From: Deltaproteobacteria bacterium
GTDB lineage: Bacteria > Myxococcota_A > Polyangia > Polyangiales > Polyangiaceae
DNA length: 64,000 bases
Assembly (NCBI GenBank): GCA_016875405.1
Contig: VGRJ01000009.1
Coordinates: 1-64,000 of the forward strand
Direction of reading: 5' to 3'
Shown here: positions 25,342 through 30,542 of the stretch, piece after piece
Layout of the letters: every line of letters starts with the position of its first letter
Numbering within the stretch: the stretch's first letter is position 1
Position numbers and translations under genes: made by a program
The notes under the pieces: generated by a model
What the model was told of the DNA's origin: nothing
The model's database searches: none
The model's input: only the letters and a program-made list of their open reading frames with translations

Positions 25342-26388
25342 CTACGCGATGACGTGAACCACGGCCTCGCCTCGACCGGCGACGTGCCCGACCACGCGAG
25401 CGTCGTCGACACCGGCATCGAGCAGCGCCCGGACGAGCGGGATCGCCGCGTCGCTCGGCACCGCGAGGAGCAGGCCCCCTGACGTCTGCGCGTCGGCGAG
25501 GACGAGGCGCAGCGCGGCCGCGATGGCGTCGTCGAAGCGCGTGACGGCGAGCGCATAGTCGAGGTTTCGGCGAGTGCCGCCGGGAATGCAGCCGCTCTCG
25601 GCGAGCTCGAGCGCGCCCGCGAGGAGGGGCACGGCGCTCGCGTGGAGCTCGACCGAGATCTCGGAGGCTTCCACGAGGTTTCGCAGGTGACCGAGGAGGC
25701 CGAAGCCGGTGACGTCGGTGCACGCGTGCGCTCCGAAGCGGCGCCCGAGCTCGCACGCGACGTCATTTAGCTGGGTCATGCGGCGCACCGCGGCGTCGAG
25801 CTGGTCGGGCCTCGCGTCCCCGCGTCGAACGGACTGCCCGAGGAGCCCCGTGCCGATCGCCTTCGTCAAGACGAGCGCGTCGCCCTCGCGCGCGAACCGT
25901 TGCGACCAGACGGCGTCTGGCTCGACGCTCCCGACGACCGAGAGGCCGCACTTGGGCTCGCTGTCCTTCATCGTATGGCCGCCCACGACAGCGCAGCGCG
26001 CGCGCGCGCAGACCTCGTGAACGCCGGCCAGGATTTCGCGCACCACCTCCAGCCCGAGAACATCGCTCGGGACCCCCAGGAAGCTCAGCGCGAGCTCGGG
26101 TCGCCCGCCCATCGCGTACACGTCGCTGAGCGCGTTGCACGCCGCGATCGCCCCGAAGGTTCGAGGGTCGTCGACGATCGGCGTGATGACGTCCATCGTG
26201 AGGACGAGAGAGCGCGCGGCGCCTTCCGGGCGCACCACGGCCGCGTCGTCGAGGAGCCCGGTTCGCTCGTCGATCCACGGGTGCGCTGCGTGCGCGAAGG
26301 GTTTCAGGACCTCGACCAGGTCCTCAGCGGGGAGCTTGCGGGCTCACCCACCGCCCTGCACGAGCGTGGTCAGACGCGGTGCGTTCAC
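25342..26388 (-). CDS. selD: Selenide, water dikinase, probably a selenoprotein (in-frame UGA read as Sec)
   Basis: 348 residues when read from GTG 26388 through TGA 26344-26346 as selenocysteine. The short version from 26238 (298 residues) would lack the catalytic N-terminus. The extended sequence begins RLTTLVQGGG-Sec-ARKLP, in which Sec15 and Lys18 correspond to the catalytic Cys/Sec17 and Lys20 of E. coli SelD. The length matches the family (347). Later motifs are DDAAVV, TMDVITP, VVGGHTMKDSEPKCGLSV and TDVTGFGLLGH. SelD makes selenophosphate from selenide and ATP. GTG 26388 is chosen because AAGGAGG lies just upstream; an ATG at 26403 is the alternative. A SECIS-like hairpin lies inside the gene. 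It converges on the MoxR gene and is divergent from ndk. Confidence 0.88.
26306..26324 (-). promoter_or_regulatory. Candidate bacterial SECIS element of selD
   Basis: In the selD mRNA a perfect 7-bp stem AGGACCU/AGGUCCU closes the five-base loop GGUCG. The loop starts about 27 bases after the UGA at 26344-26346. Bacterial SECIS elements are hairpins at this distance whose apical loop holds GU or GGU recognised by SelB; the E. coli fdhF loop contains GGUC as well. Confidence 0.6.
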
Positions 26389-26457
26389 GGGGCCTCCTTT
26401 CATCGCCGCGGAGCCTATCACTTGCGAAAGCGGCGTGGCTTCAGTACATGGCCCGCC

Positions 26458-29000: not shown

Positions 29001-30542
29001 ATGGATACCCTGTGTTTTGCGCTCCTCGACCGCGCTCTCGTGTCGCTCGAGGACCTCGAACGCGCGCTCGAGCGGCAGCTGATTCACGGGGGCGATGCCG
29101 CGACGAACCTGCTCGCCCTGGGCTGCCTGAAGGAGCACGCGGTGTTGCGGCTCCTCGCCGATCACCACGAGATGCCGGCGGGGCCGAAGGGCCGCTTGGC
29201 CGCGCCTCCTCCTGAGGTCACCGCGCTCGTTCCCCCGGCCATGGCGCGGCGCCTCGGGGTCGTGCCGTTCAAGCGAACGTCGCGCACGCTGCACGTCGCG
29301 GCGCCAGGGCCGCTCGCTCCCGACGTCGAGCTCGAGCTGCGTAACCGCGCGGGGCTCCAGCTCCGCGTCGCGATCGTCCCGGCCGTTCGCGTCGACGAGG
29401 CGCTCTCCGACGGCGGCGAGCTGCCGCTGCCGGTCGGAGTAGCCGAGGTCCTCGCTCGACTCGACGAGTCGCCCGCGCCGACCGCCGGCGCGAGTCGCGG
29501 CGGCGTCGCGTACCGACGGATGAGCGAGGTGCCCGAGGGCGTGAGGACCTCGCGCCAGCAACCGGGCGGCCCGCCCCCGCTGCCGCCGAGTCAGCCGGTT
29601 CCGAGTGACGCTCCGACCCCGGACTCGCAGGGGTTGTGGCTCGACGCCTTCGTCCTCGAGCGCGGCCGTGCCGTCCCGTCGATGGTCCCGCCGTCGCGGC
29701 CTTCGGTGCTGCCGTTCGACTCCGACTTCCCGACGTCGGGCGCCTCGTCGGCGATGCTCGACGCCTCGCCCTCGAGTCTGCAGCGCGGGGCCTTCGCCAT
29801 GGCCCCCACCTTGCCGCCGGAGAACGCGGCTCGAGGCCCCGACACCGACGAGCTCCGAATCGAGTTCGCGCCCGCCGAGAGCGGCGGCGCGGTCCCGACA
29901 GCGCTTCCCTCGACAGCGCTTCCCTCGACAGCGCTTCCCTCGACAGCGCTTCCCCGGACCGTGCCCGCCCCGGGCGCTCCCCTCTTCGGTGACCGTAGTC
30001 GCGCCGATAGGCATGTCTCGAGCGTCGACGCGGCGACGCGCATCGAGCGGACGTTTCGTCATCGGGGCCCGCTCTCGGCCGCCGAGGCTACCGCGTTCGC
30101 GCGCGCAGCCGACGAGGTCGAGCTCGTCTTGCAGATCGTCGCGCGCTTCGCTCGCCAGTATTTCGAGCGTCTCTTGGTCTTTGCCGTCGAGGGAGAGACG
30201 GCCGAGGCGCGGCTCGCTTACGGCACCGGCCCGCGGACGCCGCTCCTGCTCGTCGATCTCTCGGGGGACGGCTTGCTTGCGCGGGCGGCGCGCACGGGGG
30301 CCCCGTTCGTCGGGGAGCTGACGTCCGACTCCGCCGATGGCACGGTGCGCACGTCGCTCGGTGGGCTCGACGCCGGGGGACCCGTCGCGGTCCTGCCGAT
30401 GAGCCTCCGCGGCCGGGTAATCGTTCTGCTCTACGCCGACGACCTCGGGATGCCGATCGACCGCGATGGGCTCACCGCCGTCGAGGAGCTCTGCGAGCTC
30501 GCCGCCGAGGAGATGGCGCGGATCGTCGTCTCGGAGGCCTGA
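29001..30542 (+). CDS. MshEN-like N-terminal domain protein with disordered linker and GAF-like C-terminus
   Basis: 513 residues. The first 140 residues resemble the GspE/PilB N-terminal (MshEN) domain: ALVSLEDLERALERQLIHGG, LALGCLKEHAVLRLLADHH and VPPAMARRLGVVPFKRT; this domain binds cyclic di-GMP in some proteins. A long Pro/Ser/Ala-rich linker (about 150-340) includes a perfect 15-bp minisatellite. The last 165 residues look like a GAF-type sensor fold (VELVLQIVARFARQYFERLL, VAVLPMSLRGRVIVLLYADD). There is no ATPase domain, so it is not a pilus motor. A role in signalling is inferred. The gene is followed by the twin-kinase gene. Confidence 0.65.
   Translation: MDTLCFALLDRALVSLEDLERALERQLIHGGDAATNLLALGCLKEHAVLRLLADHHEMPAGPKGRLAAPPPEVTALVPPAMARRLGVVPFKRTSRTLHVAAPGPLAPDVELELRNRAGLQLRVAIVPAVRVDEALSDGGELPLPVGVAEVLARLDESPAPTAGASRGGVAYRRMSEVPEGVRTSRQQPGGPPPLPPSQPVPSDAPTPDSQGLWLDAFVLERGRAVPSMVPPSRPSVLPFDSDFPTSGASSAMLDASPSSLQRGAFAMAPTLPPENAARGPDTDELRIEFAPAESGGAVPTALPSTALPSTALPSTALPRTVPAPGAPLFGDRSRADRHVSSVDAATRIERTFRHRGPLSAAEATAFARAADEVELVLQIVARFARQYFERLLVFAVEGETAEARLAYGTGPRTPLLLVDLSGDGLLARAARTGAPFVGELTSDSADGTVRTSLGGLDAGGPVAVLPMSLRGRVIVLLYADDLGMPIDRDGLTAVEELCELAAEEMARIVVSEA
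29898..29957 (+). repeat. 15-bp tandem repeat inside the MshEN-like gene
   Basis: The unit ACAGCGCTTCCCTCG occurs three times in a row (29898-29942), followed by a fourth, slightly diverged copy. The unit length is a multiple of three, so the protein carries TALPS repeated. Confidence 0.9.

Follow-up and report, generated by a model that had tools for sequence, protein, structure and literature searches.

Among prokaryotic selenoprotein families, SelD (selenide, water dikinase) carrying selenocysteine (Sec) at its catalytic position is the second most widespread. Every selenoproteome contains FdhA or SelD, and these two proteins have been argued to largely maintain the Sec trait (PMC1794560). 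Among myxobacteria, Anaeromyxobacter dehalogenans was listed with a Sec-containing SelD (Sec-SelD) in 2006 (Zhang et al., PMC1794560), and in a reference set of 223 genomes Sec is present in 19% of SelD genes, invariably at this one site (Mariotti et al. 2015, PMC4561486). A bSECIS accompanies Sec-SelD genes (PMC4561486); the published model of this element has a 3–9 nt loop with a G, which G or U often follows, within its first two positions, at 16–37 nt from the UGA (PMC13188914). Our literature search for selenocysteine in Myxococcota found nothing relevant.

Here we analyse a selD gene located in a 64,000-nt stretch of DNA (positions 1 to 64,000 of contig VGRJ01000009.1; hereafter, the window) from the metagenome-assembled genome (MAG) of an uncultured myxobacterium. 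The gene resembles the bacterial Sec-SelD genes described previously (PMC1794560, PMC4561486) in having UGA at the single catalytic position, a bSECIS in the coding sequence just downstream, and selA, selB, and selC in the genome; it differs from those known so far only in its host, which belongs to an uncultured genus, and in its GTG start. Sec-containing SelD has long been known in bacteria, so the gene is a new example rather than a new finding, and the high rating given to it in the original prediction is not supported.

An in-frame TGA occupies the catalytic position of selD

The minus-strand frame from 26388 to 25342 translates into 348 residues and is interrupted by only one TGA, which is codon 15, while the plain open reading frame without read-through (25342–26238, starting at GTG 26238) yields 298 residues (Table 1). 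A Shine-Dalgarno sequence, AAAGGAGG, at 26400–26393, is positioned four bases ahead of GTG 26388, and the N-terminus that begins at this GTG, V-NAPRLTTLVQGGG, aligns with homologues of the genus that start with ATG: MTAPRLTTLV in G159, MNAPRLTTLV in G158, MTTPRLTTLV in G157, and MMTPRLTTLV in G160. Another ATG in the same frame, at 26403, lies upstream of the Shine-Dalgarno sequence, does not coincide with the starts of relatives, and is an unlikely start. The coordinates, both lengths, the AAGGAGG motif, and the GTG start all agree with the original prediction, as judged from the sequence and its translation.

The extended protein matches the selD profile TIGR00476 (E = 8.8e-99) with a score of 330.6 bits, above the curated cut-off of 125 bits, and the match begins at profile position 1. 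Its predicted catalytic Sec lies within a Gly-rich stretch near the N-terminus, three residues ahead of a Lys. In particular, N-terminal alignment with SelD of E. coli (3u0o) and of Aquifex (2yye, 2zod) places their catalytic Cys on Sec15 and their Lys on Lys18; the solved chains differ in having Cys where the window gene has UGA. Alignment with Sec-SelD and Cys-SelD sequences confirms that the UGA falls on the same residue, exactly at the Cys/Sec position and three residues before the Lys, as had been proposed from the window alone.

A standard gene caller returns the 298-residue protein, and if this were the true product, the TGA would end a short unrelated frame. Such a product is highly improbable: it would be without the first 50 residues, including the catalytic residue and the Lys, which are matched by the family profile and by E. 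coli and Aquifex SelD, bearing out the original claim that the shorter frame lacks the catalytic N-terminus, and relatives conserve the protein sequence encoded upstream of the TGA. Specifically, differences from genus relatives in the 13 codons upstream of the TGA are mostly at third positions, as are those in the downstream codons, a pattern that, on codon comparison, indicates purifying selection on both flanks. The annotation is corrected here, as standard gene callers would truncate SelD before its active site.

Table 1. Coordinates of selD, its associated elements, and other UGA-containing genes of the genome. Positions are those of the window unless a contig is named.
Feature	Position	Strand	Support
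selD, selenide, water dikinase, 348 aa with predicted Sec at residue 15	25342..26388	-	TIGR00476; E. coli 3u0o, Aquifex 2yye/2zod
Shine-Dalgarno sequence AAAGGAGG	26393..26400	-	also directly ahead of the ATG start in G159
GTG start codon	26386..26388	-	aligns with ATG starts of other genus members
In-frame TGA, predicted Sec at catalytic Cys/Sec position, GGG-U-ARK	26344..26346	-	alignment of relatives; TGC there in G071 (L069)
AAG, Lys three residues past Sec (Lys18)	26335..26337	-	conserved in SelD relatives read
bSECIS hairpin (predicted), 5′ arm AGGACCU	26318..26324	-	folding and covariation
bSECIS apical loop (predicted) GGUCG, 26 nt after UGA	26313..26317	-	model in PMC13188914
bSECIS hairpin (predicted), 3′ arm AGGUCCU	26306..26312	-	100% of cells paired in 20 sequences
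SelW-like Rdx protein, UGA in CxxU motif CVMU (RYCVMU-SY)	L135, G000 C54:569-772	-	same UGA in G158, G159, G160
Peroxiredoxin-like protein (AhpC/TSA-type), UGA at redox site FTGGU-TAEC	L133, G000 C127:4730-5092	-	
AhpC/TSA-like, peroxiredoxin-like protein, UGA at redox site RHFGU-MFC	L134, G000 C118:613-900	+	

The TGA is conserved across the order

The order is represented by 184 searchable genomes, and a SelD match over the cut-off was obtained in 61: 43 genomes with one TGA inside SelD, 15 with none, and 3 with fragments missing the site. Exactly one TGA is thus present in 43 of the 58 genomes in which SelD extends, or could extend, as far as the site; this count, the profile match and the codon pattern upstream of the TGA show that the extended frame is not a chance occurrence. 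In the sequences read, the TGA residue is identical across the Sec genes of the order, and Cys is present at this site in the alignable homologues without TGA, such that the in-frame UGA aligns with Cys or Sec of homologues. The same-residue TGA is also present in two MAGs of a second collection, one assigned to Myxococcales and one to Candidatus Microthrix (Actinobacteriota).

An ordinary Cys codon (TGC or TGT) mutated or misread as TGA, in a dead gene or through an assembly error, could be suspected in a MAG, and the TGC seen in a relative is one base from TGA. This origin is nonetheless very unlikely, as the same TGA recurs in another 42 genomes of the order, each assembled separately; its order-wide conservation, together with the third-position codon differences, contradicts a dead gene or a sequencing error. 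The purifying selection seen on both flanks, conservation of the hairpin described below, and the presence of this gene as the sole selD in the genome, beside selA, selB, and tRNA-Sec, argue against it as well.

A covarying hairpin follows the TGA

A 7-bp hairpin, AGGACCU-GGUCG-AGGUCCU, begins 22 nt downstream when counted from the first base of the TGA, or 19 nt when counted from its last base. Its spacing and loop fit the published bSECIS model and, as in the bSECISearch consensus (PMC13188914), a small apical loop with G then G is positioned 26 nt after the UGA. Comparison of 20 distinct GGGUARK-type sequences reveals standard pairing in all 140 pair cells (20 of 20 sequences) and compensatory changes, involving both sides, in 3 of the 7 pairs. 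In controls, slid positions were only 15–58% paired, and none of 500 shuffles scored as high on pairing or covariation; the 20 sequences are related, and the shuffle count should not be read as a probability.

The protein and RNA sequences are coupled within the hairpin. Specifically, where the encoded residue is Ser, its codon is always AGC and the opposite Val or Ala codon ends in T; where it is Asp (GAC or GAT), the opposite codon ends in C in 9 of 11 cases and in T, giving a G-U pair, in 2 of 11. The Ser and Asp forms appear in mixed order on the SelD tree, and more than one such change is therefore likely.

The window hairpin core shows no extra stability as a single sequence relative to synonymous recodings (z of -0.2), and single-sequence stability was consequently not counted as evidence; the corresponding mean is -1.1 for the Sec set, versus +1.0 for four Cys homologues. 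Dinucleotide shuffles gave a z of -3.0 for a 57-nt stretch, a value that was not relied on because a second stem, in which the UGA itself takes part, contributes to it. The case for the predicted hairpin is made by covariation across relatives, which are not independent of one another.

Sec machinery and other UGA-containing genes

The source MAG is 99% complete, with 2.3% estimated contamination. The SelA/SelB/tRNA-Sec system implied by the original prediction is encoded in the same assembly: selA is present in one copy on contig C84; a tRNA-Sec with a UCA anticodon (68.1 bits) is present on contig C12; and selB is present on contig C12, with a second copy on contig C85. Given the MAG's contamination estimate, it should be noted that selA and tRNA-Sec are on contigs other than that of selD. 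The assembly contains no second intact selD, the other two matches being far below the family cut-off; thus, neither absence of the machinery nor an additional selD with Cys, both of which had been named as signs of a pseudogene, was found.

The two selB genes (C12, L021:9066-10979; C85, L023:2-1930) are 70% identical and have partly syntenic surroundings. Each of four other members of the genus has one selB, and in view of these single copies and the estimated contamination of the bin we do not treat the duplication of selB as biological; C85 probably strayed into the bin from a related species.

Across the order, all 43 genomes with UGA-containing SelD have selA and/or a tRNA-Sec of 92–97 nt (the tRNA-Sec of bin G093 is cut by a contig end); among genomes without SelD, 1 of 123 has selA or tRNA-Sec (G013, 81% complete; Fisher p = 1e-44).

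Further selenoproteins were sought in three families: molybdopterin oxidoreductases, Rdx/SelW, and AhpC/TSA. At least three more UGA-containing genes are present in the genome, one SelW-like and two peroxiredoxin-like (Table 1), in line with the expectation that SelD would not be its only selenoprotein. None of the molybdopterin family matches in the window's genome contains an internal TGA. In the sister genome G157, part of a formate dehydrogenase gene is present and has UGA at its Sec site, NRT-U-H (CNRTU-HAPS; L103, C280:10-816, minus strand). A motif search for UGA-containing genes in sister loci yielded mostly wrong-frame noise, and only its SelW matches were used. A scan of the window for in-frame TGA turned up six more candidates; their contexts are not convincing, and they look like chance occurrences in wrong frames. 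Separately, the window open reading frame at 29001–30542 encodes a protein with a short tandem repeat, STALPSTALPSTALP.

The family match from the N-terminus, the conserved UGA with Cys in homologues, the covarying hairpin, the machinery, and the other UGA-containing genes, all of them features of the sequence, lead us to conclude that the gene is selD and that its UGA codon 15 is almost certainly read as Sec. SelB-independent read-through of the UGA, aided by the hairpin and inserting another residue, has been proposed for Hymenoptera SPS1-UGA, and a mechanism of this kind has been reported for SPS1-UGA of eukaryotes (PMC4561486), but it is very improbable for a gene whose genome has the full Sec machinery, which co-occurs with UGA-containing SelD in the order, and for which Cys is the only replacement seen. 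Still less credible is a genome in which TGA is a sense codon, for example for Trp or Gly, a reading that has nothing in its favour beyond the in-frame TGA itself, and against which TGA terminates 31 of the 40 likely genes in the window, homologues have Cys rather than Trp or Gly, and a tRNA-Sec with a UCA anticodon is present.

With the UGA read as Sec, and with SelB binding, Sec insertion, and enzymatic activity taken by analogy from known families, SelB with Sec-tRNA(Sec) would bind the hairpin beginning 22 nt past the UGA; rather than terminating, the ribosome would insert Sec at the catalytic position. The finished SelD would use selenide and ATP to make selenophosphate, which SelA would use to convert Ser-tRNA(Sec) into Sec-tRNA(Sec), and the resulting supply would feed the synthesis of SelD itself and of at least three other selenoproteins. 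Sec-SelD would, in this way, depend on its own product. It is very probable that this uncultured myxobacterial group decodes selenocysteine and produces several selenoproteins.

Exchange between Sec and Cys in SelD of the order

In a maximum-likelihood tree of the 61 SelD sequences, the distribution of Sec and Cys requires five changes, at least four of which are forced by well-supported branches. Genomes without TGA in SelD mostly keep the machinery (tRNA-Sec in 13 of 15 and selA in 13 of 15). In particular, the SelD of G071 (L069) has Cys, encoded by TGC, and is nested among Sec forms in the same clade as the window gene; selA and tRNA-Sec are both still present in this genome, and the hairpin core of its selD has collapsed to a folding energy of -0.4 kcal/mol, versus about -10 to -13 kcal/mol in its Sec relatives. 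A recent Sec-to-Cys change in G071 is likely.

We consider it reasonably probable that SelD in the order has exchanged Sec and Cys at least four times with the Sec machinery mostly kept, that the hairpin constrains the coding sequence in Sec lineages (Ser AGC to Asp GAY, with a pair-restoring third base opposite), and that the nested Cys lineage has lost the hairpin. If true, this would amount to a natural experiment on the retention of Sec by SelD rather than to a new system, and the Sec and Cys forms side by side in one family would offer matched material for testing what Sec adds.

Two further observations concern individual sequences. The actinobacterial Sec-SelD from the Candidatus Microthrix MAG (L060) falls among the myxobacterial sequences with weak support and has a long branch, a placement that possibly reflects horizontal transfer or an artefact. 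Bin G093 has a Cys-SelD on C657 (L034), beside the tRNA-Sec that is truncated where the contig ends, as well as a Sec-SelD on C245 (L062); because the bin has 8% contamination, it may represent two organisms.
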